Assembly: GCF_014174305.1 (NCBI RefSeq)
Contig: NZ_JABEQH010000016.1
Location: 1 to 64,000, forward strand
DNA from: Gluconacetobacter johannae
Lineage (GTDB): Bacteria > Pseudomonadota > Alphaproteobacteria > Acetobacterales > Acetobacteraceae
Reading direction: 5' to 3'
Length of the DNA: 64,000 nt
Shown in pieces: positions 38,610 through 51,869 of this stretch (its first letter is position 1; every line of letters begins with the position of its first letter). The notes under the pieces were generated by a model. The model had not been told where the DNA came from, made no database searches, and saw only the letters and a list, made by a program, of their open reading frames with translations. The position numbers and the translations under genes are program-made.

Positions 38610-40274
38610 TCAGCCCGTCAGGCCATCGTAGAAATCATTACCCTTGTCGTCGATGACGATGAAGGCGGGGAAATTCTCGACCTCGATCTTCCAGACCGCC
38701 TCCATGCCCAGTTCCGGATATTCCAGAACCTCGACCTTGCGGATGCAGTCCTTGGCCAGCCGCGCCGCCGGGCCGCCGACCGAGCCCAGGTAGAAGCCGC
38801 CGTATGTATGGCAGGCCTCGCGCACCGCCTTCGAGCGGTTGCCCTTGGCCAGCATGACGAACGACCCGCCGGCCTTCTGCAGCATGGCGACATAGCTGTC
38901 CATGCGCCCCGCCGTGGTCGGGCCGAACGAGCCGGTGGGCAGCCCGTCGGGCGTCTTGGCCGGGCCGGCGTAATAGACCGGGTGATTCTTCAGGTAGTCG
39001 GGCAGGCCCTCGCCGCGCTCCAGCCGTTCGCGGAACTTGGCGTGGGCGATGTCGCGGGCCACCACCATCGTGCCGGTCAGCGACAGGCGCGTGCGGACGG
39101 GAAAGCGCGACAGCAGGGCGCGGATCTCGCTCATCGGCTGGTTCAGGTCCACCTGGACCACCTCGCCGTCCAGATGCGCGTCCGTCGTTTCCGGCAGGAA
39201 GCGGGCGGGGTCGGTTTCCAGTTGCTCCAGGAAGAACCCGTCGGCGGTGATGCGCGCCTTGACCTGCCGGTCGGCCGAGCACGACACGCCGATGCCCACC
39301 GGCAGCGATGCGCCATGGCGCGGCAGGCGCACCACGCGCACGTCATGGCAGAAATACTTGCCGCCGAACTGCGCGCCGATGCCCAGGCGCTGCGTCAGCT
39401 TCAAAATCTCCTGTTCCAGTTCCAGGTCGCGGAAGGCGTGGCCCAGGGGGCTGCCCTGGGTGGGCAGGGTGTCCAGCCAGCGCGTCGAGGCCAGCTTCAC
39501 CGTCTCCAGCGTCTGTTCGGCCGACATGCCGCCGATCACCACCGCCAGGTGGTAGGGCGGGCAGGCCGAGGTGCCCAGCGTGCGGACCTTGACGTCCAGC
39601 CATTTCAGCAGGTCGTCCTTGCTGGACAGCAGGGCGCGGGTTTCCTGGAACAGGAAGGTCTTGTTGGCCGACCCGCCGCCCTTGGCGACGAACATCAGGT
39701 CCATCTGTTCGGCGTGATAGTCGCCGGGGGCGGCCGAGATATGGAACTGCACCGGCAGGTTGGTGCCGGTGTTCACTTCCTCGAACATCGACAGCGGCGC
39801 CATCTGCGAATAGCGCAGGCTGGTGCGGGTGTAGGTGTCGTACACCCCGCGCGAGAACGCTTCCTCCTCGTTCCCGTCGATCCAGACGCGCTGGCCCTTC
39901 TTGCCGTAGACGATGGCCGTGCCGGTGTCCTGGCACATCGGCAGCACGCCGCCGGCGGCGATGCAGGCGTTCTTCAGCAGGTCCAGCGCCACGAAGCGGT
40001 CGTTGTCCGAGGCCTCGGGGTCCTTGAGGATGCGCGCAAGCTGCGCCAGATGGCCCGGCCGCAGCAGATGCGCGATGTCGTGGAAGGCGCGGGCCGCCAG
40101 TTCGCTCAGGGCCTCGGGGCGGATGTGCAGCACGGTCCGCCCGTCGCAGACCGTGGTGTGCACGCCCGCGATCTCCAGCTTCTTCCACGGCGTGTCGTCG
40201 TCGTGCAGCGGAAAGAGCGGGCCGTAGGCGAACGGCTTGAGCGCCGGTTTCGGTGGGGTGGTTGAAACATTCAA
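38610..40274 (-). CDS. Fumarate hydratase, class I (iron-sulfur)
   Basis: The 554-residue enzyme hydrates fumarate to malate in the TCA cycle with an oxygen-sensitive 4Fe-4S cluster. It is a fusion of the alpha (TtdA-like) and beta (TtdB-like) domains. Visible signatures include [31 protein letters not shown], the [11 protein letters not shown] stretch and the C-terminal [30 protein letters not shown]. Its length matches FumA/FumB. It is a single gene between sspB and the VOC gene, all on the minus strand. Confidence 0.96.
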
Positions 40275-40374
40275 CGGACGATCTCCCTTGTGCCAGTCTC
40301 CCCCGGATTGGTTCCGGGTGGTAGCGGTTCACGGGACGCCCGGCCGCATCCGGGCGCTCCGGATGACGTGTGGT

Positions 40375-40932
40375 TCAGCCCTGGTTCGGCCCCTTCTTCC
40401 GAAAGGCCGCAAGGCTGACCACCTGCGACGAGGCCGGCGTCTCGGCCGGCTCGTCCCCTGCCGGGGCGGGGGCGGTGGCCCCGGCGTCCGGCGGGGTGGT
40501 CTCGTCGGCCTCCTCCTCCTCATCCGGCTCCGGCGCGGTGAAGCGCAGGGCCAGCCGGACATGGGGGTCGGCGAAGGCCGTGATGGCGGCGACGGGGATG
40601 ACCAGGATCGACCCCACGCCGCCGAAGGACAGGCCGACCGACACGGTCTGCGCCGCGCGGTCCACCTTCAGGTCCCAGAACTGGTGCTGCAGCACGATCG
40701 TGATCTCGTGCGGGTACTGGGCGCGCAGGCGGGCGGGCATGTCCACGCCCGGCCAGTTGGTCAGGAACGTGATGTAGAAATGATGCCCGTCCGGCAGGCC
40801 CTCGGCGCCGACATGGTCCAGCGCGCGCAGCATCACCTCGCGGTACGCGTCCTCGATCCAGGCGTCGTAGGGTATGAGGCTGTCGGGAATCACGGCGTCG
40901 AAGCCGTTTTCCTCATCGTGATCGTCGGACAT
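40375..40932 (-). CDS. sspB: SspB, ssrA-tag adaptor for ClpXP (alpha type)
   Basis: SspB binds the tmRNA tag and delivers tagged proteins to ClpXP. The 185-residue product has the alpha-SspB fold (LIPYDAWIEDAYREVMLRALDHV, HHFYITFLTNWPGVDMPARLRAQYPHEITIVLQHQFWDLKVD, VGSILVIPVAAITAFADP) and an acidic, disordered linker (PEPDEEEEADETTPP). A C-terminal ClpX-binding tail follows (QVVSLAAFRKK). It lies directly downstream of the ssrA gene on the same strand, about 120-150 bases away. Confidence 0.93.
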   Translation of the reverse strand: MSDDHDEENGFDAVIPDSLIPYDAWIEDAYREVMLRALDHVGAEGLPDGHHFYITFLTNWPGVDMPARLRAQYPHEITIVLQHQFWDLKVDRAAQTVSVGLSFGGVGSILVIPVAAITAFADPHVRLALRFTAPEPDEEEEADETTPPDAGATAPAPAGDEPAETPASSQVVSLAAFRKKGPNQG

Positions 40933-41059
40933 GCGGACTACTCCGTACCGTCCGGCCCCCCCCGTGATCGGGCGGCCGGCGCCTGATGGCCTTGCTGCTT
41001 CGCGCCACGCCGTGCCACAGGTTCAAGCCATGCGTCAAACGCCGCGCCCTTGCAAGGGA

Positions 41060-41410
41060 CGGACCCGCGGATCGGCTTCACGAAGCGGACATGATGCCAC
41101 GGCGGGGCGGCAAAGTGGGAGGGCTTCTGTTGCCCGGTGCCCTCCCGAACCGCGCTTGTCACTTATGCAGCGACAGCGAGCACCTCAGAGTTATCGTTGG
41201 CACTTGTGATTTAGCCCGATGACGGTGGTACAATACCGGGCAAAAGGCAGGTCTTTACCATGCGTGTCGAGCCTGTTTCGTCCCCATGGCTCCCTGCCCC
41301 GAAGGGTCGTAGCGGAGAGCGTTCTGGTGGAGACGCCGGGTACCGCCCCCGGGTCCACAACATTTATTCCACGTGCCGTTTATCGCCATAGCCAAGGGGC
41401 GAACCCCTCC
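41060..41410 (-). ncRNA. ssrA: Two-piece, circularly permuted tmRNA (ssrA); outer ends approximate
   Basis: On the minus strand the 3' acceptor piece comes first (about 41410 to 41325) and ends in an encoded CCA at 41327-41325. The T arm is CCGGG-GGCGGTA-CCCGG. After a 39-base intervening segment (41324-41286) the coding piece starts with GGGGACG at 41285-41279. That pairs with CGTCTCC at 41335-41329 to form the 7-bp acceptor stem. The tag frame at 41201-41163 reads ANDNSEVLAVAA followed by TAA. This is the alphaproteobacterial layout, in which the precursor is cut into two RNAs. tmRNA rescues stalled ribosomes and tags the product for ClpXP. Confidence 0.93.
41163..41201 (-). other. ssrA: tmRNA tag reading frame (ANDNSEVLAVAA, stop)
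   Basis: The resume codon GCC at 41201-41199 begins the peptide ANDNSEVLAVAA, closed by TAA at 41165-41163. The AND start and the VAA C-terminus are the SspB- and ClpX-recognised ends. Confidence 0.92.
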
Positions 41411-41534
41411 GGCACCATGGGATATAGGGTTGGCGGCCGCCGTTGGCAAGCGGTGTGGCGCACGCCACGGTCGCGAAGCGGGGGGTTTCGTGATATGCGC
41501 CCCCTTCGGACCACACGGACAGGGCGGGAAGCAG

Positions 41535-42485
41535 ATGTTTTCAACGGACCAGCAATCGGAAATCGACGCCGCCCGCGCCGGCTGGGCCCAGACCCGCCGC
41601 ACCGTCGTCCCCGCCGCCGAGGACGCGCTGTACACCCCCCTGCCGGTGCTGGAGACCGGATTCGTCCGACTGATCGACTATATGGGCGGCGACGCGGCCA
41701 TCGTGCAGGGCGCGCGGGTGTCGTACGGCAAGGGCACGCGCAGCACCTCGGACGACCGGGGGCTGATCCGCTACCTGATGCGGAACCGGCACACCAGCCC
41801 GTTCGAACTGGCGGTGGCCAAGTTCCACGTCCGCGCGCCCATCTTCGTCACCCGGCAGTGGTTCCGCCACCGCACCGCCAGCATCAACGAATATTCCGCG
41901 CGCTATTCGGTGCTGGAGAAGGAATTCTACTTCCCCCGGCCCGAGGACATCGCCCGCCAGTCGTCCAGCAACAAGCAGGGGCGCGGCGACAGCCTGCCCG
42001 CCGACGCCGCAGAACAGGTGCTGGCCCTGCTGCGCGAGGACGCCACGCGCTGCTACGACCATTACCTGGAAATGCTGAACCAGGACGAGGCCGGCAACAT
42101 CGTCGACCCCACGCGCCCGGTGGTGGCGCGCGAGCTGGCGCGCATGACCCTGCCGGTCAATGTGATGACGCAGTTCTACTGGCAGATCAATCTGTGGAAC
42201 CTGCTGCATTTCCTGCGCCTGCGCGCCGACGCCCATGCCCAGTACGAAATCCGCGCCTATGCCGACGCCATCCTGACCCTGGTCGAACGCTGGGTACCGC
42301 AGACCTTCGAGGCCTTCCGCGACTACATGCAGGAAGCCGCCCTGCTGTCCGGCCCCGCGCTGCGCGCGCTGCGCGCCATCCTGGCCGGTGACGGCACGGT
42401 GGACCTGCAGGCGGCCGGCCTGTCGAAGCGCGAGGCGGCGGAACTGATCGCCCTGCTGCCCGAAATCGGGCCGCGCGCCCGCTGA
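41535..42485 (+). CDS. thyX: Flavin-dependent thymidylate synthase
   Basis: ThyX makes dTMP from dUMP with FAD, NADPH and methylene-tetrahydrofolate. I start at ATG 41535 (MFSTDQQSEID) with GGAAG just upstream, giving 316 residues; earlier ATGs lie in the tmRNA control region. The FAD/dUMP motif RQWFRHRTASINEYSARYS near residue 113 contains the family R-H-R-x7-S-x-R signature. SKREAAELIALLPEI closes the protein. A partial copy of its last 190 bases lies at 44810-44980. Confidence 0.96.
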   Translation: MFSTDQQSEIDAARAGWAQTRRTVVPAAEDALYTPLPVLETGFVRLIDYMGGDAAIVQGARVSYGKGTRSTSDDRGLIRYLMRNRHTSPFELAVAKFHVRAPIFVTRQWFRHRTASINEYSARYSVLEKEFYFPRPEDIARQSSSNKQGRGDSLPADAAEQVLALLREDATRCYDHYLEMLNQDEAGNIVDPTRPVVARELARMTLPVNVMTQFYWQINLWNLLHFLRLRADAHAQYEIRAYADAILTLVERWVPQTFEAFRDYMQEAALLSGPALRALRAILAGDGTVDLQAAGLSKREAAELIALLPEIGPRAR

Positions 42486-42534
42486 AGGCGGGGCGCTGCC
42501 TCATAGGCGCGAAGGTCGCATTTCGCAAGAAATC

Positions 42535-42645
42535 TCAGGGCTCTGCCCTGAAACCCGCCAAAGGCCACAGGCCTTTGGAAACCAATCCGTTATCCCTGAT
42601 CGGGGTCCAGGGCCTCAGGCCCTGGTGGGTTCGGGCAGCGCCCGG
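42535..42645. repeat. Dispersed palindromic repeat cluster (modules a, b, c)
   Basis: TCAGGGC-TCT-GCCCTGA is at 42535-42551 (module a). CCAAAGGCC-ACA-GGCCTTTGG is at 42558-42578 (b). CCAGGGCC-TCA-GGCCCTGG is at 42607-42625 and GGGC-AGC-GCCC near 42633-42643 (c). The b stem changes GGGC/GCCC to GGCC/GGCC on both sides compared with other copies, so pairing is kept. It fills the 356-base gap between thyX and the chemotaxis receptor. The rest of the gap is an AT-richer leader with no other feature. Confidence 0.85.
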
Positions 42646-42841
42646 CCTTCCTTTTCCCCTATCGCCCGGCGGGGGCGCCGGCACAAAGCGGCTTCGGCCG
42701 TCACCCGTTAAATATAATCTTCATTATGCGGTCTCCTGGAGATTTCATAGACTCGCGCGGGTGATCTACGCCGCTGTGCGGGCGCAAAATATTGGGTTCA
42801 TGGCATCGGCAGGAAGACGAAAATAATCGAAGGGATACCCT

Positions 42842-44710
42842 GTGCGGTCGGTTGGCATTAAACTCTCTCTGGGTATCATTTTATTACTTATTTCCATTTC
42901 CTGCGTTGTTTCCGGAAAATTTTCGATAGACGGCCTCACCCATGTCAACGGCCGGGTGGAAAAGATCGCCCACCAGTCGCTTGCAAGCCTGAAGATACTG
43001 GCCGCGATCGACAGTCAGATCCGCACGTTCCGCGCGGTCGAGATCCAGCAGCTTACGACGTCGTCGCCCGAGGAATTTGCGACGCTTTCGGCCAGCAGCA
43101 CCGCCATTTCCGAAAAGATCGCGCATGCCATCGACGCCTATGTGCCGTTCATCAATTCGGACAACGACCAGGCCCTGTTCCACAATTTGCAGGAGGAATG
43201 GTCCGAATATGAGGAATATCACGACACGACGTTCAAGAACTGGGTTGTTTCGCAGGACAAGAGCCATGCCCTGCTGAACGAAGGCCAGCAACTGATCGAA
43301 TTGCAGGAGAAAGTGTCCGGCACCCTCACGTCGTTCATGGACGGCAGCATCACGGACGCGGCGTCCTATGCGCTGGACTCCGGGGTGACATACCGGATGA
43401 CGCTCCGGCGGGTCTATGCCGCGTATGTCGCCCTGTTCGTCGTCGTGGTCGTCGCCGTCCTTGTCGTGGTGTACAACATTCTGCGGCCCCTTCAGAAAAT
43501 CAATGCGTCCATCACCAGGTTGGCCGGCGGCCAGACGGACCTGACGTTTCCGCTGGCGCACAGGGGGGATGAGATCGGCGCGATCTCCCGCTCGCTGGAC
43601 GTCTTCCGCGCCGCCGCCATCGCGAAGCGGAAGCTGGAGCAGGACGCCGAAATCCAGCGCCGGCAGGCCGAGGCCGAACGTGTCGCCATTCAGGAGAAAG
43701 CCGAAGCCGAAGCGCGGGAGTGGCTACGCAAGGCCACGGGCGCCCTGGCCGCCGGCCTGAAGCGGATGGCCGGGGGCGACCTGTCCTTCCAGATCGAGAC
43801 CGAATTTTCCAAGGCGTTCGAGCCCCTGCGCCACGATTTCAACCAGTCCCTGGCGCAGCTTGCCGCGACATTTTCCCGGATGTCCGGCGCCATTCACGTC
43901 ATCAGCGACGGCACCCACGGGCTGGCGGCCGGGGCCGACACCCTGGCGCGCCGCAGCGAAACGCAGGCGGCGGCCCTGGAACAGACGGCCGCCGCCGTGG
44001 CGGGCATCGCCCGAAGCGTGGAGGATACGGCAAAACGATCCGAAGACGCCCAGCAGATCGGCGCGCGGGCGCGCCAGTCCGCCGCGACGTCCACCGCGAT
44101 CACGCACGAGGCGGAAGCGGCCATGGGCCGCATCGAACAGGGTTCGGCGCAGATTGCCGCGATCGTCGACGTGATCGACGGCATCGCCTTCCAGACCAAC
44201 CTCCTGGCGCTGAACGCCAGCGTCGAGGCGGCGCGGGCCGGTACGGCCGGCAGGGGGTTCGCCGTCGTCGCCACCGAAGTGCGATCGCTGGCGCAGAAAT
44301 GCGCCGAAGCCGCCCTGGATGTCCGCACGGTGATCCGCCGGACCGCCGCCGACGTGCAGGAGGGCGCGGGCCGCGTCAAGGATTGCAGCGGGGCGCTGCG
44401 GACCATCGCCGCGTTCATCGGCCAAATGGGCCAGCACCTGGACGCCATCGCCATCGCGGCCAGGGAACAATCCTCCAGCCTGGGGGAAATCAACGCCGCC
44501 GTGGGGTCGCTGGACCAGACGACCCAGCAGAACACCGGCGTCGCCGACCAGTTCCACGCCACCTCCCGCAGCCTGGCCGACGAAAGTGGCAGGCTCAACG
44601 GGCTGGTCAGCCAGTTCAGCCTGCCGGAAACCGAGGCCGCCGGGCAGCACGCCGCATTCCCCGACCACGCGGCCTCGGACCGGGTGCTGCTGGCCGCTTA
44701 CGAAGAATAA
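42842..44710 (+). CDS. Methyl-accepting chemotaxis protein
   Basis: The gene uses a GTG start at 42842 with GAAGGGAT upstream. The 622-residue receptor has TM1 (LSLGIILLLISISCVVSG), a periplasmic four-helix-bundle sensor of about 150 residues, and TM2 (VALFVVVVVAVLVVVYNIL). A HAMP domain (LAGGQTDLTFPLAHRGDEIGAISRSLDVFR) and a cytoplasmic signalling domain follow, with VIDGIAFQTNLLALNASVEAARAGTAGRGFAVVATEVRSLAQ at about residues 440-485. It senses an unknown ligand and feeds CheA/CheW. It is a single gene directly before the island. Confidence 0.94.
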   Translation: MRSVGIKLSLGIILLLISISCVVSGKFSIDGLTHVNGRVEKIAHQSLASLKILAAIDSQIRTFRAVEIQQLTTSSPEEFATLSASSTAISEKIAHAIDAYVPFINSDNDQALFHNLQEEWSEYEEYHDTTFKNWVVSQDKSHALLNEGQQLIELQEKVSGTLTSFMDGSITDAASYALDSGVTYRMTLRRVYAAYVALFVVVVVAVLVVVYNILRPLQKINASITRLAGGQTDLTFPLAHRGDEIGAISRSLDVFRAAAIAKRKLEQDAEIQRRQAEAERVAIQEKAEAEAREWLRKATGALAAGLKRMAGGDLSFQIETEFSKAFEPLRHDFNQSLAQLAATFSRMSGAIHVISDGTHGLAAGADTLARRSETQAAALEQTAAAVAGIARSVEDTAKRSEDAQQIGARARQSAATSTAITHEAEAAMGRIEQGSAQIAAIVDVIDGIAFQTNLLALNASVEAARAGTAGRGFAVVATEVRSLAQKCAEAALDVRTVIRRTAADVQEGAGRVKDCSGALRTIAAFIGQMGQHLDAIAIAAREQSSSLGEINAAVGSLDQTTQQNTGVADQFHATSRSLADESGRLNGLVSQFSLPETEAAGQHAAFPDHAASDRVLLAAYEE

Positions 44711-44759
44711 CCGTTCTGCTACGGGACATTTTCGGCGCAGTGAGTGCGCCGCGCGGGCA

Positions 44760-44980
44760 GGTCGGGCGCCACCCGGCCCGTCCTGCGCCACTCGAACGAC
44801 GAGCCGATGCCCCAGACCTTCGAGGCCTTCCGCGACTACATGCACGAAGCTGCCCTGCTGTCCGGCTCCGCGCTACGCGCCCTGCACGCGGTTCCGGCCG
44901 GCGACGGCACGGTGGACCTGCAAGCGGCCGGCCTGTCGAAGCGCGAGGCGGCGGAACTGGTCGCCCTGCTGCCCGAACTC
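44760..44980. pseudogene. Chimeric remnant: rpoN 3' end joined to thyX 3' end
   Basis: Bases 44760-44815 match the 3' end of rpoN at 50510-50590 (GGTCGGGCG, ACCCGGCC, CTCGAACGACGAGCCGATGCCC) in the same orientation but lack about 27 bases. From CAGACCTTCGAGG at 44813 to 44980 the sequence instead matches the thyX 3' end at 42300-42470 on the plus strand. That part still reads QTFEAFRDYMHEAALLSGSALRALHAV through AAELVALLPELG. Neither part can be a working gene. The join lies at a shared GCCCAG. Confidence 0.85.
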
Positions 44981-45002
44981 GGCAAGGGCCTCGGCCCTTG
45001 CC
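44981..45002. repeat. Palindromic repeat module d, left edge of the island
   Basis: GGCAAGGGCC at 44981-44990 and GGCCCTTGCC at 44993-45002 form a perfect 10-bp hairpin with loop TC. Its right part, 44986-45002, repeats at 50491-50507 with one mismatch, on both sides of the accessory island. Confidence 0.8.
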
Positions 45003-45651
45003 TTCGCTTCAATCGGCCCCGCTGGCCTTCTTGGGGGCGACAAGCACCAAGAATCCGAGACTTACCGCGTGATGGAAGCGTCGTTCCTCAAAGAAGAGGC
45101 GATTATACCGCTTGCAACACGGCTGGTTGCGCCTTCTTTTCGGACTTGTTTGCTTGAATGCGGTCATCCCGTAAGCGGACATTGTCATGTAACCCACGAC
45201 AGGCTGCTTCGGGGACGAAACCGTTGTTCGCGTGTCAGATAGCGAAGTGCGGCTTCCGGTTCGAGGCAGGCACAAGGCTTGGTCGCCTGTAAGCTAGGGC
45301 CTAGCCTGTCTCATGCTACACAGCCCTTTGAAAATTAGTGCCCCCTGTATGGCCCGACTTGCCGCCATTGTAGCACTTCGCCACTGGGCAAACTGGCGTC
45401 ATGCTGAACGATCTTGCTCTGCATGTACAGCAAAGCACGCTGTTCAGCATGTCTAGGACGAAGCCTGCTTACGAGCGGCTGTTAGTAACCATGAATGAAA
45501 GGAAATATAGATTTGGTAATGTCATACTACTCCTGCTTTTTTATGACATAAACTGGAATGGAAACCCAAAAATAACACTACACCAACTCGATACACCATC
45601 TGTCCGAAGGGAATAATGGAAACTTATGCTTGGGGAACGGTGGCTTTCATC
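45003..45651. other. Island left part without a convincing gene
   Basis: GC content drops sharply here. Short frames exist (45009-45275 minus, 45401-45616 plus), but neither has a family match that I recognise. A nested inverted repeat lies at 45401-45452: CATGCTGAAC at 45401-45410 pairs with GTTCAGCATG at 45443-45452, and TTGCT with AGCAA inside. This looks like debris of mobile DNA. Confidence 0.5.
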
Positions 45652-46116
45652 TCATTTTTGAGAAGAGGGCTGAAATTTTGTCACCAGGAATTGAAGCAAT
45701 AAAACTGATATTGCAAACATGATAGCATGATATAGAGTCTCCCTCCACATCCCCTTTAGTGCATCAGTTGCCCCTGCATGATAACTATTCGATATAAAAT
45801 ATATTGCTTGGCACCAAAAAAAAGAGACTAGAGACTGAACATTTGTCGAAATCTCATCGAGAGAGAAGGTTCTAACTGTTAAATTTTTCGGTGCAAATAA
45901 AGAAATTATGCCTGTTATAAAAATAACAACTATTAGCACGACAGAAGATTTCATATAAATCCCATTTATAGTTCCCATTATATTTTCTGCTGTACCATAG
46001 TAGAAAAAATCGTTTCTTTGCATTATGGCAACAAGTAGGCCAATTAGTCCCCACAATGCTAATTTATATATTGCTTTGAACCATTTAACATCGAGATTTA
46101 ATAGCCAAGGCGTCAT
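45652..46116 (-). CDS. Small membrane protein of unknown function, AT-rich
   Basis: The 154-residue product has about four membrane helices: IYKLALWGLIGLLVAIM, SSVVLIVVIFITGIISLF, VQSLVSFFWCQAIYFI and LYHAIMFAISVLLLQFLV. No family is recognised. Base composition is far more AT-rich than the genome around it, a sign of recent transfer. It lies inside the island, upstream of and divergent from the helicase operon with 745 bases between. Small membrane proteins are often effectors in defence loci, but nothing in the sequence proves this here. Confidence 0.6.
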   Translation of the reverse strand: MTPWLLNLDVKWFKAIYKLALWGLIGLLVAIMQRNDFFYYGTAENIMGTINGIYMKSSVVLIVVIFITGIISLFAPKNLTVRTFSLDEISTNVQSLVSFFWCQAIYFISNSYHAGATDALKGMWRETLYHAIMFAISVLLLQFLVTKFQPSSQK

Positions 46117-46861
46117 GCTGTTACTCTTCGTTTATTGGATCTGAAAGAATACAATGACACATCTCGCGTAAGGTTGAATAGTATCGAACTGAACCACCGC
46201 GAATTTATCGGAGACGTTCTTCCCACCGATCTAAAAAAGTTCCGACTTCGGAAAGTGAGTCTGTTTTTTCGCGTTCATGCCATCAAAGTCGACTGTCAGG
46301 TTTCCCCCTGATCTGCCTGTCCGCTCAGTGATGCAGGAGCAGACAGGCGGCAGTCGCCTTCATCTCGGACATACTGTTGTCCAGATCACTTTACGCATAG
46401 CGGACATGAAGCATGGGTCGGTAGCGGACAGACGACTTGCGGAATGACCGCGCTATAGCTGCTGTTCTTCCTCTACGACCCGCATTTCCGCCCGATCGCA
46501 GCACTGATCGCGCGGTGGCACGAAGAAGGATGGATCACGGTGCGAAGGTCCGGCTGCGATCGAACTGTGGATCAGGGATGGATTTTTTCGTCGGACGCAA
46601 CTGGCTTTACCCTGCTAGCGAAACGCACGACGCCAGCCCCAATTCAATCTGGTCCGGATGCCCTCGGCTGCGGGAGGCGCTAATGTTGGATAGTGCCAAT
46701 CGACTGCAAGAAAGTCAGCAGGTATTTGGCGGCGGCGTTGCCTAGATCGACTCAGGCGACCCAGTCCCGCTCCTGCCGTTTGGGCTAGAAAGCGTCGCAG
46801 GCTTGAAGGGAAGACGGCGCAGCCCTAGGTTTTAACCCAGCTATCCTGTAGAAAGTGCCCG
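46117..46861. other. 745-base intergenic stretch in the island
   Basis: No intact gene is visible. A fragment near 46458-46680 reads LLFFLYDPHFRPIAALIARW in one frame and then degenerates, so it may be a decayed coding sequence. The promoter of the helicase operon must lie at the right end. Confidence 0.4.
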
Positions 46862-48952
46862 ATGTCGATTTCATATATCCCCACCGTAAGCGGTGACCCC
46901 ATTAATGCCGTAGCCGGCGAAGTCATCCGCAAGATCCGCGCTGGGGATGTCTATGCCGCCGATGACGACATCGTACTCTATGCCGGATGGCCCAAAGTTA
47001 AGGATTACGATGGGCGGCCGCATAGCGCTGATCTCACCATTCTAGGCAAGGATCATGGCCTAAAACTTTTGAAGATATCGCTCGCGGCTAATGCACGCGA
47101 CTTGCGCCGCGATGCGCAGACCATCGCCCAAGTCGCCGCTTCCACCGAATCGCTCATGGGCAAGAGTCTCGCCCTCAAGAAACGCCGGCAGCTGATCTTC
47201 GAAGTCGTCCCTGTCCTCTACGCGCCTAATCTCGGCGAGCCGTACGACAACGAGGAAATCGAAATCGCACGCACCGAGGCTGAGTTCGTTCGCATCCTTA
47301 AGGAAGAAAGCGGCCCCCTTTCCGACGCCCAGCGCAACGAAGTTCGCGCCATCGTCGAAGGAGCTAAGGCGCTCGGCCAACTCTCCGAAGCCGAGGACGA
47401 CGATACACTATCGGACATCGCGCGCGCCTACCGGGAACTGGAAGCGGTCATCTACAACTTCGATGCCGCCCAGCGCTCTGTCGCGCTCACGTCCATCCGT
47501 GGTCCGCAGCGCATCCGCGGGCTGGCCGGCACCGGCAAGACAGTCATCCTCGCCATGAAGGCGGCCCTCGCACACATTGAGAATCCCAATGCCAAGATTC
47601 TCATTACGTACTACACGCGCAGCCTGCGTGACGTCATGGAGCGGATGATCACACGCTTCCATCGCCACTTCGCCGAAGTCGATCCTAACTGGGACAATCT
47701 GCACGTCCGCCATGGCTGGGGCCGCTCTAACCTTACCGGTGTCTATCGCGAGGCCTGCATCCGTGAAGGTCTCGTGCCGCGTTCGTTCAGCGACGTGCGC
47801 AGCGCCGCCGATCCTTTCGGAACCGTCTGCCGCGAACTGGTCGACGCTAAGGTGCTCTCACCCTACTACGACATCATCCTCGTCGACGAAGGGCAGGACT
47901 TTCCCGACGGTTTCTACCAGATGTGCTTCTTTCTGGCTAAGGGCAAGCGCGACCAGAAGCAGATCATCTGGGCCTATGACGAGCTACAGAACGTATTTGA
48001 CGTCAATGTGCGCGAGCCCGAGCAGCTCTTCGGGCAGGACCACGACGGTGAACCACGCATATCGCTTGCACGCAGCCTGCCGGTCGGCACAGATACCAAC
48101 GATTTCGTTCTGCAACGTGCCTACCGCAACCAGCGCGAAATCTTAGTCCTGGCCCACTCCCTCGGTTTCGGCGTCTACGGCAAGACGGTCCAGATGCTCG
48201 AGAACGAGAAGCACTGGGAAGATGTCGGCTACGACGTGATCGACGGGACCTTCACCGCGGGCAGTCTCTGCATTGTCGAGCGGCCGATGGCCAACAGCCC
48301 GACCACGCTCGACAGCCCGCCGGGCGTGAACCTCGTTGAGATCATCGGGGCCGATAACCTTGCGGCGGAAGTCGAACACGCTGTGATCGAGATCCGTAAG
48401 TTCGTGAACGATGGTCTTAAGGCCGACGAGATTCTCGTCGTCTGCCTTGATGATCGGGCCTCTAAATCTTACTTCTCCAAGCTATCAGGGTTGCTGGCGC
48501 AGTCCGACATCGCTTGCAACAACATCTTAAACAATCCCTACAGCGAGCCCGCCTTCCGCATCGATGGGAAGGTGACTCTCAGCACCGTTTACCGGGCCAA
48601 GGGTAACGAGGCCGCTGTCGTCATCGTGTTAGGCGCCGATGCCGCCGTGCTCGAAACGCGCCTGGGCCGCAACAAGCTTTTCGTGGCTTTTACCCGTACC
48701 AAGGGCTGGTTGCGCATCTTCGGATGTAACAACAAAAATTTCGCAAGGCTGAGGGGGGAAGTCGTGATGGCACTCTCCAAGAGTCCACGCATCGAGTTCG
48801 TCATGCCCGACATGACCAACCTCAACACAATCCAGCGGGGCCTTGAAGAGAAGCATGCGCGCCTCCTGGAAGCGAAACGCCGGGTCGATCGCATCAGAAG
48901 CGAGTTCAACCTCTCGCAGGATGACATGGCAAACCTGCTCGAGGAGGAGTGA
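46862..48952 (+). CDS. SF1 (UvrD/DUF2075-like) helicase, putative defence protein
   Basis: The 696-residue ATPase has Walker A GLAGTGKT near residue 220, motif Ia ILITYYTRSLRD, motif II IILVDEGQDFPD near 338, motif V-like STVYRAKGNEAAVVIVLGA near 575 and motif VI FVAFTRTKGWLRI near 605. The order and DEGQ box fit UvrD/Rep-type SF1 helicases. The first 200 residues are an extra domain. The stretch SADLTILGKDHGLKLLKIS recalls the D-x-G-x-ExK hairpin of nuclease (NERD-like) domains, but the ExK is not conserved. It overlaps the downstream DUF2290-like gene by one base (TGATG), with GAGGAGGAG as its ribosome site. The operon lies in a small island, so a phage or plasmid defence role is inferred. 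Confidence 0.85.
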   Translation: MSISYIPTVSGDPINAVAGEVIRKIRAGDVYAADDDIVLYAGWPKVKDYDGRPHSADLTILGKDHGLKLLKISLAANARDLRRDAQTIAQVAASTESLMGKSLALKKRRQLIFEVVPVLYAPNLGEPYDNEEIEIARTEAEFVRILKEESGPLSDAQRNEVRAIVEGAKALGQLSEAEDDDTLSDIARAYRELEAVIYNFDAAQRSVALTSIRGPQRIRGLAGTGKTVILAMKAALAHIENPNAKILITYYTRSLRDVMERMITRFHRHFAEVDPNWDNLHVRHGWGRSNLTGVYREACIREGLVPRSFSDVRSAADPFGTVCRELVDAKVLSPYYDIILVDEGQDFPDGFYQMCFFLAKGKRDQKQIIWAYDELQNVFDVNVREPEQLFGQDHDGEPRISLARSLPVGTDTNDFVLQRAYRNQREILVLAHSLGFGVYGKTVQMLENEKHWEDVGYDVIDGTFTAGSLCIVERPMANSPTTLDSPPGVNLVEIIGADNLAAEVEHAVIEIRKFVNDGLKADEILVVCLDDRASKSYFSKLSGLLAQSDIACNNILNNPYSEPAFRIDGKVTLSTVYRAKGNEAAVVIVLGADAAVLETRLGRNKLFVAFTRTKGWLRIFGCNNKNFARLRGEVVMALSKSPRIEFVMPDMTNLNTIQRGLEEKHARLLEAKRRVDRIRSEFNLSQDDMANLLEEE

Positions 48953-49686
48953 TGAATCTTGCCGATTTCAATACGAGCATTCGGGCGGCGATCGACTTCT
49001 ACACCGCCCAAGGATTGTGGCAGTCGAGTGTCTATACGTGCGCGTTGCCCCGTTCGGCGTCGTTCAACCAGCTTGCGCTGACAACGAGGGATTACGCACC
49101 GGTCTACGAAAAGGGCCTTGCCCTTTCGCACTATAATTTCCTTCTGAGTGATTTGTCCTTCTTCCAATTCTCGCACACAAGCGAGACCGAGTACGCTCTT
49201 GCCTATTACCCGAATCCCCGCCTTAGCGGGTCGCCGGCTGCCCTCGATGAGTACCGCAGCTACGAAAAAGAGCGCGACGAGGGGCATTGGAGCGATGAAG
49301 AGTTTGCAGAACTCGCTTCGGCGATTCCGGTACGCACCTTCATTCCGCGAATCCGCTTCGAATACAGCGAAAAACAATACAAGAACGTGCGCCATCCCGG
49401 CGCTCATTTTCACATCGGTATGTCCGGTGAAGACCGCTGGGCATCGGCTCGCAAGCTCTCGCCCCTTACCTTCGCCCTGCTGATGGCCAAACATTATCAC
49501 CCTGTGAATTGGTGGGCTGGATCGCGTTTTTCGCACCCAGTCGAAGATCAGAACCTCCTCTTCGAAACTTGCCTCGATCGCAAGCTAATCGCGGCACTCC
49601 AAGTCGACGGAGTTTCACAGTTCCTATCCGAAGACGAGCGGATGGGGTTTCATTTCGCCGCACTGCATGGCGCTGTGACTACCTGA
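48952..49686 (+). CDS. DUF2290-like protein, partner of the helicase
   Basis: The 244-residue protein (ATG 48952; GTG 48949 possible) begins with a helical part, ADFNTSIRAAIDFYTAQGLW. A conserved-looking core follows: NFLLSDLSFFQFSHTSETEYALAYYPNPR, FIPRIRFEYSEKQYKNVRHPGAHFHIG and RKLSPLTFALLMAKHYHP. This pattern (PR-x-RFEY, HPxAHFHIG, LSPLTF) resembles DUF2290, a family without known function. The match is from memory and needs an HMM search. HPGAHFHIG could be a catalytic or metal site. Translational coupling with the helicase implies a shared complex or pathway. Confidence 0.75.
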   Translation: MNLADFNTSIRAAIDFYTAQGLWQSSVYTCALPRSASFNQLALTTRDYAPVYEKGLALSHYNFLLSDLSFFQFSHTSETEYALAYYPNPRLSGSPAALDEYRSYEKERDEGHWSDEEFAELASAIPVRTFIPRIRFEYSEKQYKNVRHPGAHFHIGMSGEDRWASARKLSPLTFALLMAKHYHPVNWWAGSRFSHPVEDQNLLFETCLDRKLIAALQVDGVSQFLSEDERMGFHFAALHGAVTT

Positions 49687-49711
49687 TTTCAGCGCATACT
49701 ACGGCGTGTCG

Positions 49712-50300
49712 TCAGTTAAGCAGAATGACGACTGAGGCGAACTGAACGGCTGCGAGGAAAGTGGATTTCAGTTTGTCGTAGCGCGTTGCAATGGCGCGGA
49801 ACCGTTTGAGTTTGTTAATGAAGCGTTCGACAAGATTTCGTTCCCTGTAAAGGGCGAAGTTTGTTTCGCGTTGTGTCGTTCGGTTGCGTTTTGGCGGGAT
49901 AACCGGGGCAATCTCGCGCTTTGTCAGTTTGTCGATCAACCTGTCTGCGTTATACGACCTGTCGGCCAGGAAGGCATCCGGGTCAATGTTTTCCAGCATC
50001 GGTTCAGCCCGGTTGATATCCGCATCCTGTCCCGGTGTAATATCGAGTTCTACCGGGTTGCCCAGAGCATCGCAGATGGTATGGATCTTTGTGGTCAACC
50101 AGACCCGGGATCGTCCGATGGCCTGATCAGCGCCCCCTTTTTCAGGGCTCCCGCACTATGCTGGTGCGCCCGGACAATGGTGCTGTCGATCATCATGTAC
50201 TCATTGTGGTGATCTGCTGCCAGATAATGAAAGATCCTTTCGATCACACCGCTTTCACACCAACGCCGGTCCGACCCCGATTGAATGGCGACTTTTGGAA
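49712..50300 (-). pseudogene. Decayed IS5-family (IS427-group) transposase
   Basis: The C-terminal DDE part is intact (LTTKIHTICDALGNPVELDITPGQDAD, LADRSYNADRLIDKL, RERNLVERFINKLKRFRAIATRYDK) and ends at 49712. The upstream part reads RRWCESGVIERIFHYLAADHHNEYMMIDSTIVRAHQHSAGALKK in another frame. The join is at an A5G5 run (50133-50142), as in IS427-type programmed -1 frameshifting. Upstream of about 50300 the usual N-terminal half is missing or scrambled. The left end near 49700 (GGCGTGTCGTCAGTTAAGC) looks like an IS terminal repeat, and no matching right end is found. The element is therefore truncated and inactive. Confidence 0.8.
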
Positions 50301-50468
50301 TTTCACGGCAAAGCGTTGAATGACTGAGATTGGCGCGTAGCTGTTATGAACGTCGACGGTACGAATGGCCGCTTTTCTAATATCCCCGCCTAACAGCCGA
50401 CATTCTGTTTCCCCCCGCCAATCAGCCGTTTTTTCGAACGGCATAATCTCCTCCCAAGGCCTCGGACT

Positions 50469-51869
50469 TTATGAATGTGATGGGATGCGCGGGCCTCGGT
50501 CCTTGCCGGGGTCGGGCGACACCCGGCCTGTCCTGCGATGGTCCGCCGCGCGGTACGTCTTGCGCCGCTCGAACGACGAGCCGATGCCCAGCACCTCGCG
50601 GTATTTGACCACCGTGCGGCGCGACAGGGCGAAGCCGATCTGGTGCAGTGCCTGGACGATCCGTGCGTCGGACAGCACCGCGTCGGGCGATTCCTCGTGG
50701 ATCAGGCGGCGGATGTGGGCGCGGGCGGCCCCGGCTGCGCGCAGTTCGCTGTCCGTGCCCTCGACGCCCGCCGAAAAGAAGAATTTGAGGGGAAACAGCC
50801 CGAACGGCGTGGCGATATGCTTGTTGGCGACGATGCGGCTGATGGTGCTGTCGTGCAGGCGCACGTCGTCGGCGATGCGCCGCATGGTCAGCGGGCGCAG
50901 CGCCTCGGGCCCGCGCGTCATGAAATCGGCCTGGCGAAACAGGATATGTTCGCCCACCACCATCAGGCTGTGCTGACGCCGCGCCAGCGCATGCACCAGC
51001 CAGCGCGCGCCCGACAGCCAGCCGGCGACACGCTTGCGTTCGTCCTCGTGGCGCAGGGACCCCAGCCGGTCCGTCAGGGCGGTGTTCAGCCCGACCGTTT
51101 CGGACAGGTCCTGCGCCGCCGCCACGCGCCACGTGCCGTTGGGGCCTTCCTGCACCATCAGGTCGGGGATGCGCGTCTGGACGGGTTCGGCCACGTCCTC
51201 GGCCCACGGGCGCGGGTTCAGCGCGCGCAGTTCGGCGATCATCTCGGCCAGGTCGTCGGCGTCCACGCCGCAGGCCGCGCGCAGCCGGCTCCGCTCGCCC
51301 CGCGCCAGCAGGTCCAGGTTCGCCAGCAGCGCCGCCATGGCGGGGTCGAACCTGTTGCGCGCCTGCAACTGCACCGCGAAGCATTCCGCCAGCGACATCG
51401 CCGCCACCCCCACCGGGTCGAAGCGCATCAGCCGCTGGCGCACCGCCTCGATGCGTTCGGGCGTGACGTTCAGGCGGCGGGCCAGTTCCGCCCTGTCGGC
51501 GGCGAGCCGCCCCGCTGCGTCCAGCTCGTCGATCAGCGTTGCGCCGATCCGCCGGTCGGCGCCGTCGGGCATCGCCCGCATCATCTGCCGCAGCAGCCGT
51601 TCGCGGATGGTCATGGGGCCGGCCGGCACGCGCAGGGTGGCATCGTCCAGCCCCCCGGCTTCGGCGCGGGCCGGGCCTTCGCGCGCGTAGGCCGGCGGGT
51701 CGAAGCGTTCCAGAAGGGGGTTACCATCGACCTGGGCGGCGATGAAACGTTCCAGGTCGGTCTGCGACATCCGCAGCACGCGCAGCGTCTCGCGCATGCG
51801 CGCGGTCATGGCCAGCCCATGGGCCAGCCCCTGGCGCTGGCCGAGTTTCTGCCCTAGCGCGACGGGCAC
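50469..51869 (-). CDS. rpoN: RNA polymerase sigma-54 factor (divergent, hydrogenase-linked)
   Basis: I start at GTG 51869 (VPVALGQKLGQRQ), 13 bases after the nickel-permease stop, giving 466 residues; ATG 51810 is an alternative. Region I is short and unlike the Gln-rich canonical one (ARMRETLRVLRMSQTDLERFIAAQVDGNPLLERF). The core-binding region has NPRPWAEDV. The HTH (LHDSTISRIVANKHIATPFGLFPLKFFFS) and RpoN box (SRRTVVKYREVLGI) are intact, so it can bind -24/-12 promoters. The last 25 residues after RRKTYRAAD are extra and partly encoded by repeat DNA. It closes the hup-hyp run that encodes the sigma-54 activator HoxA. Confidence 0.93.
   Translation of the reverse strand: MPVALGQKLGQRQGLAHGLAMTARMRETLRVLRMSQTDLERFIAAQVDGNPLLERFDPPAYAREGPARAEAGGLDDATLRVPAGPMTIRERLLRQMMRAMPDGADRRIGATLIDELDAAGRLAADRAELARRLNVTPERIEAVRQRLMRFDPVGVAAMSLAECFAVQLQARNRFDPAMAALLANLDLLARGERSRLRAACGVDADDLAEMIAELRALNPRPWAEDVAEPVQTRIPDLMVQEGPNGTWRVAAAQDLSETVGLNTALTDRLGSLRHEDERKRVAGWLSGARWLVHALARRQHSLMVVGEHILFRQADFMTRGPEALRPLTMRRIADDVRLHDSTISRIVANKHIATPFGLFPLKFFFSAGVEGTDSELRAAGAARAHIRRLIHEESPDAVLSDARIVQALHQIGFALSRRTVVKYREVLGIGSSFERRKTYRAADHRRTGRVSPDPGKDRGPRIPSHS
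50491..50507. repeat. Right-edge copy of the island direct repeat
   Basis: GGGCCTCGGTCCTTGCC at 50491-50507 matches 44986-45002 with one change (T for C). It is a half copy of module d that overlaps the 3' end of the rpoN frame. Confidence 0.75.

Follow-up and report, generated by a model that had tools for sequence, protein, structure and literature searches.

A divergent, mobile copy of the Helicase+DUF2290 defence system in an AT-shifted island of Gluconacetobacter johannae

Helicase+DUF2290 was reported in 2022 among the anti-phage systems that P4-like satellites carry (Rousset et al. 2022; PMC9122126). According to the sections of that paper available to us, the systems were cloned under their native promoters in Escherichia coli MG1655 and challenged with eight phages, and Helicase+DUF2290 specifically inhibited T7. 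The PA1372/PA1371 genes of Pseudomonas aeruginosa PAO1 were assigned to the same system in 2024, as stated in an excerpt of the paper (PMC11637435). This pair is known for plasmid cost, not for phage. In the accessible text of two reports (PMC4410645, PMC4208098), mutations inactivating the helicase (PA1372) abolish the fitness cost of plasmid pNUK73, the over-expression of rep and the induction of the SOS response; after 10 days pNUK73 was retained at 33.7% in helicase mutants versus 0.57% in the ancestor, and the helicase is located in a small low-GC island close to a transposase. Here we examine two adjoining genes that encode a superfamily 1 (SF1) helicase and a DUF2290 protein in a 64,000-nucleotide stretch of G. 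johannae DNA (contig NZ_JABEQH010000016.1, positions 1 to 64,000; hereafter the window). The pair is almost certainly a member of the Helicase+DUF2290 defence system and, as such, is a divergent, mobile member of a known system and not new as a kind.

Table 1. Features of the helicase-DUF2290 locus, in window coordinates unless given as residues.
Feature	Position	Strand	Description
SF1 (UvrD-like) helicase gene	46862-48952	+	696 amino acids; frame uninterrupted
DUF2290 partner gene	48952-49686	+	244 amino acids from ATG; frame uninterrupted
Helicase layout	residues 1-190; residues 220 to 615		putative degenerate NERD-like domain (1-190); core motifs (220 to 615)
Island holding the pair	44739-50398		in sister species G406 the flanks enclose an unrelated 3.7-kb stretch
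IS5-family transposase fragment	49699-50268	-	longest listed open reading frame a 128-amino-acid DDE domain (DDE_Tnp_1, 1.1e-16)

The window helicase matched the PADLOC model PDLC03002 'Helicase' at 2.3e-118 (394 bits; residues 34-680 on model positions 27 to 680 of 707). Its partner matched the PADLOC model PDLC02998 'DUF2290' (3.2e-13) and Pfam PF10053 (DUF2290; 1.1e-9, 38.5 bits against a cut-off of 25). We take the two PADLOC models to belong to one PADLOC system entry. The genes adjoin in the order helicase then DUF2290, as in relatives, and the families, order, adjacency and mobile setting are the same as in the published system (Rousset et al. 2022; PDLC03002, PDLC02998, PDLC02999). The initial annotation had put the pair forward as an undescribed system and suggested a search of defence models. 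That search recovered both proteins, and the models together with the anti-T7 system described in the available sections of PMC9122126 rule out novelty of the system. By description, PA1372/PA1371 are alike in having a UvrD-C-type helicase, an adjoining DUF2290 gene, a low-GC island and a transposase nearby.

Other helicase systems fit less well. Hachiman (HamAB), in the portion of its description available (PMC12278908), is likewise a two-gene system with a helicase sensor and a partner effector and serves below as a model of mechanism; unlike in Hachiman, a nuclease role for DUF2290 is only a proposal, and no HamA or HamB model matched the three scanned proteins at E up to 1. Gabija (GajAB) shares a UvrD-like helicase. 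GajB models matched the window helicase weakly (best 9.2e-8), with 29 bits for the best against the 394 bits with PDLC03002. No GajA model matched at E up to 1 in the helicase, the DUF2290 protein or a neighbouring 154-amino-acid frame, a scan confined to near neighbours, and the neighbour downstream of the DUF2290 gene is an IS5 transposase piece, not GajA. The score with the STM2767 family helicase model (NF053713) was 126.4 bits against a curated cut-off of 550.

Several features that the initial annotation had read from the sequence were found again: a complete SF1 helicase frame, a TGATG overlap with the second gene, an HPGAHFHIG core in the second protein (residues 148-156) and an extra N-terminal helicase domain of about 200 residues. 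The helicase keeps its motifs intact (GLAGTGKT at residue 220, DEGQDF at 342, AYDELQ at 371, YRNQ at 421, STVYRAKGNEAA at 574 and VAFTRTKG at 608), and Pfam matched UvrD_C_2 (1.1e-10). At the junction, GAGGAGGAGTGATGAAT, the genes overlap by one base, the DUF2290 start lies inside the helicase stop codon and a purine-rich, ribosome-binding-like stretch directly precedes the overlap. From the overlap and this stretch we infer that the two genes are translationally coupled. An alternative GTG start 3 bases further 5' would give a DUF2290 protein of 245 amino acids.

The N-terminal extension of about 190-200 residues is common to all 17 aligned helicases, the window's included. This alignment omits the broken helicases of loci L020 and L021, the near-copy L036, the distant L040, L041 and L011-L016, and those cut at a locus end (L001-L009, L024-L026, L038). 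Comparison of the 17 N-termini by hhalign with a profile of 20 NERD sequences gave a score of 29.2 (probability 39%, 35 columns) that none of 150 column shuffles reached (maximum 16.5), pointing to a sequence-profile relation to NERD (PF08378). The NERD model of Pfam itself fails to call the window helicase or any of nine relatives, which weighs against the relationship. Because Pfam makes no NERD call in these proteins, the domain is, on this sequence evidence, best called degenerate and NERD-like. The catalytic E-x-K of NERD is lacking in 17 of 17 helicases when the alignment is read in the hhalign register; the window helicase reads K-x-S at this position, and the preceding Asp is retained in 15 of the 17. 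The nuclease in cis of the helicase appears to be dead. A helicase N-terminus that appears NERD-like but lacks the catalytic E-x-K is new in this analysis.

The DUF2290 protein carries a small set of strictly conserved residues. Across 21 of 31 sequences, the window's included, 8 of 310 columns were invariant (M1, D67, P89, R135, H148, H152, R162 and F174), and Y52, Y61, Q72, A84, P87, P149, Y183, E229 and H234 were kept in at least 90%; the sequences omitted from this alignment were those of L004-L006, L008, L009, L017, L020, L022, L026 and L036. The core of the window protein, H-P-x-x-H-x-H, is the same in 10 of the 21, and Thr replaces the third His in the other 11. An AlphaFold2 (AF2) model of the window protein had a predicted template-modelling score (pTM) of 0.71 and a mean predicted local distance difference test score (pLDDT) of 69, and the predicted fold had no clear match in the PDB. 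In the available parts of the literature located by full-text searches for DUF2290 and HelicaseDUF2290, we found no biochemical role or mechanism for DUF2290, in keeping with the initial annotation, which had described the family as having no known function.

The two families occur together. Among 398 sampled genomes of the phylum, PF10053 (E 0.001) and the helicase model (E 1e-40) were each found in nine, and the nine are identical, with neither family found alone. The helicase lies directly 5' of DUF2290 in eight of them; in the ninth (G253) the pair is split over the ends of two contigs and the helicase match begins at base 134. In the class, DUF2290 was found in 4 of 385 genomes including the window's own, and the helicase adjoins it in the other three. 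Plasmid searches matched 17 records, of which 11 enter the linkage count, and in all 11 the helicase is directly upstream of DUF2290 (for a Proteus record, L035, by comparison of open reading frames only). Hosts of the pair belong to Cyanobacteriota, Actinomycetota, Bacillota and Pseudomonadota. The initial annotation had named two findings that would count against its proposal, namely no recurring linkage of the families and a distribution in core genomes; the recurring pairing and the nine genomes of 398 speak against both. A housekeeping helicase is likewise ruled out by this rarity in the phylum and class and by the 13 other genomes of the genus, which contained no close helicase relative (pieces of 25-36% identity in G398 and one weak 34% piece in G404).

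Window and canonical DUF2290 queries found no match in a phage collection by tblastn, and DUF2290 queries found none in four scans of viral contigs. The helicase query found five viral contigs: two (L037, L039) with an adjoining DUF2290, one (L038) that ends inside the helicase, and two (L040, L041) with distant helicases and no DUF2290 match. Six relatives lie on genome contigs, and both genes are whole in four. In L020 (4671-6615) the helicase match stops at residue 413 and the DUF2290 match starts at residue 40; L021 (5789-6738) has a whole DUF2290 and only the tail of the helicase. DUF2290 is split over two frames in L036.

Trees of the helicase and of DUF2290 mirrored each other over 17 loci (r=0.977; 0 of 9999 permutations as high), with the same broken, end-cut, near-copy and distant sequences omitted as in the helicase alignment. 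Both trees have two clades. The window's clade contains alphaproteobacterial, Exiguobacterium and Proteus sequences and two viral contigs; the other contains sequences from an E. coli plasmid, Acinetobacter, Nostoc, Thioflavicoccus and actinobacteria. As judged from these trees, the window copy is from a divergent clade that is mostly alphaproteobacterial among the sampled loci. The published system differs in that the window pair falls in a separate, well-supported clade, of which we found no test in the accessible parts of the literature searched.

The pair lies in a low-GC island. Between 45 and 51 kb the GC content of the six 1-kb blocks is 45-62%, versus 62-75% in ten blocks either side, which bears out the AT-shifted island of the initial annotation, and its mention of insertion sequence (IS) debris is confirmed by the IS5-family piece downstream of the pair. 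This piece is 83-87% identical to IS5 transposases on four Acetobacter and Komagataeibacter plasmids. Both flanks (39001-44738 and 50399-51720) can be aligned piecewise, at 91-96%, with a locus of sister species G406 (L084); from the stretch between them, only a thyX-like copy at 44808-44983 aligns to it. Among the relatives found, that of Gluconobacter thailandicus (L018) is the closest, with protein identities of 93% for the helicase and 91% for DUF2290. DNA identity to this relative is 90.7% over 46800-50016, past the genes and into part of the IS fragment; a further aligned segment covers 50277-50417 (82%). The nearest DNA and IS relatives are in Gluconobacter, Acetobacter and Komagataeibacter, which points to an acetic-acid bacterium as the probable host. 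The window copy was apparently acquired recently by horizontal transfer.

Known defence genes lie beside some relatives. We chose 10 neighbouring proteins by eye at six loci, which does not give a rate. PADLOC matches were to Hachiman HamB (L020), PglX and PglZ of BREX (L031), type III restriction-modification (L037) and an AriA/Old-like ATPase (L022), and at L017 a protein with an LmuB-like PADLOC match and an annotated SIR2 gene lie beside the pair; no PADLOC match at 1e-10 was obtained for three of the 10, namely the SIR2 protein, a 179-amino-acid protein at L022 and a protein at L027. On the Thioflavicoccus mobilis plasmid pTHIMO01 (L031, 1-8576) the pair lies between PglX- and PglZ-type (BREX) genes. 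The E. coli plasmid that carries the pair is typed as conjugative. On two Acinetobacter plasmids of about 11.4 kb (L029, L030) the pair takes up about one quarter of the length and lies beside BrnT/BrnA. The initial annotation had proposed a defence or plasmid-control unit. Family models, linkage, patchy distribution, some defence neighbours and published experiments on other members all support this part of its proposal; only 'undescribed' has to be dropped.

The best explanation overall, which we consider probable, is a horizontally acquired, apparently intact Helicase+DUF2290 copy that works by a sensor-effector mechanism. For the mechanism itself, by analogy with HamAB (PMC12278908) and Gabija (PMC10952713) as described in the available text of these papers, we regard it as an evenly balanced question whether the helicase senses and DUF2290 acts. 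The nuclease-dead NERD-like domain would serve as a DNA-binding or docking module, the helicase would sense abnormal replication or recombination intermediates that arise from phages and some plasmids, and its ATP-driven movement would activate or release DUF2290, which as effector would damage nucleic acid or halt growth. As the cis nuclease of the helicase appears dead, its obligate partner DUF2290 is the natural effector candidate; we infer both the division of roles and the effector activity. That DUF2290 is specifically a nuclease is a more tentative suggestion. The PAO1 plasmid data are compatible with a sensor of replication intermediates. They also allow for a direct effect on rep expression. 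The system is known, and a mechanism for DUF2290 is absent from the accessible parts of the literature searched. The pairing, mirrored trees, NERD-like domain without its catalytic pair and invariant D, R and H residues reduce the question to a few point mutants, and these comparative facts also bear on the published plasmid fitness cost in PAO1.

The roles might be reversed. The helicase would then be the effector, stripping or remodelling the replication complexes of phages or plasmids, and DUF2290 would be its regulator or safety catch. Helicase mutations alone removed the plasmid cost in PAO1, as far as the accessible reports state, and the strict pairing of both genes in our sample would also be expected of a toxin and its control. 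The polar residues D67, R135, H148, H152 and R162, invariant across phyla, are more suggestive of a catalytic or binding site than of a regulator, and we consider this arrangement unlikely. We give rather less credence to the idea that the pair is mainly an anti-plasmid module that interferes with plasmid replication, with phage defence secondary. The PA1372-dependent cost of pNUK73 with rep over-expression, and the better retention of this plasmid in helicase mutants in the PAO1 reports as available, favour it. However, the demonstrated T7 inhibition in E. coli (PMC9122126, available sections) argues otherwise, and the pair is itself borne on small Acinetobacter plasmids and a conjugative-typed E. 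coli plasmid and is thus not incompatible with plasmids generally.

Under a further, improbable reading, a UvrD-type helicase with a dead NERD domain restrains a TumE-like DUF2290 that targets translation or RNA and is freed on phage or plasmid replication structures. If this were true, DUF2290 would belong to the TumE superfamily as a member gated by a helicase. By eye, TumE (PF20126, PMC10584680) and DUF2290 share collinear DG-x-x-x-[EQ], R-[YF]-D and H-x-H motifs, and strand order in the AF2 model seems similar when judged by eye against the published verbal description only. Eleven of 21 DUF2290 sequences carry Thr instead of the second His in H-x-H, which is unlike TumE and speaks against the reading. 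Pfam called TumE in none of seven DUF2290 proteins scanned, hhalign of DUF2290 against TumE gave a probability of 0.2, and shuffles scored as high as a cut-down core in 39 of 150 cases in local mode and 150 of 150 in global mode. With an in-house aligner that makes long gaps cheap, DUF2290 scored 19.0 with TumE, whereas unrelated segments averaged 14.0 and 7 of 52 of them scored as high; these 52 consist of 51 overlapping segments of helicase plus one NERD profile and are not independent. As controls for this aligner, column shuffles reached the TumE score once in 60, and a reversed TumE gave 14.5. A search for a PDB chain for one TumE sequence found none. With no significant profile comparison and no Pfam call, TumE homology of DUF2290 is unsupported by sequence, and a TumE-toxin-like core is a lead that these sequence tests do not support.

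Finally, it is very improbable that the window copy no longer functions and is decaying as a passenger amid IS debris: an IS fragment adjoins the pair, two of the six genome-contig relatives have a broken helicase (one of these, L020, also lacks the first 39 residues of DUF2290) and L036 has its DUF2290 in two frames, but the window copy has two full-length frames and the complete set of helicase motifs, and the closest relative, at 91-93% protein identity, is whole in both genes.

Other observations concern the island and its edges. The left edge (44767-44982) is a hybrid scar of two adjoining copied fragments, a 53-nucleotide copy (83%) of the 3' part of an rpoN-type gene (50544-50596) and a 173-nucleotide copy (91%) of the 3' end of thyX (42297-42469); in the sister species this stretch aligns only at the place of the thyX original. 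An interspersed element of about 34 bases at about 44968-45001 accounts for 38 of the 41 own-genome matches listed for 44700-45400, a listing that covers 40 scored candidates of 198. The stretch at 46301-46374 recurs over 63-69 bp, at 91-93% identity, in plasmid DNA that has no listed gene; it is present on 15 of 20 matched records, from Acetobacter, Komagataeibacter, Kozakia and Gluconobacter. The island also contains the 154-amino-acid frame (45652-46116, - strand), which is hydrophobic by eye and had no family match above the cut-off. Near the island, a transfer-messenger RNA gene (41072-41417, - strand) adjoins and partly overlaps the mechanically called thyX frame.
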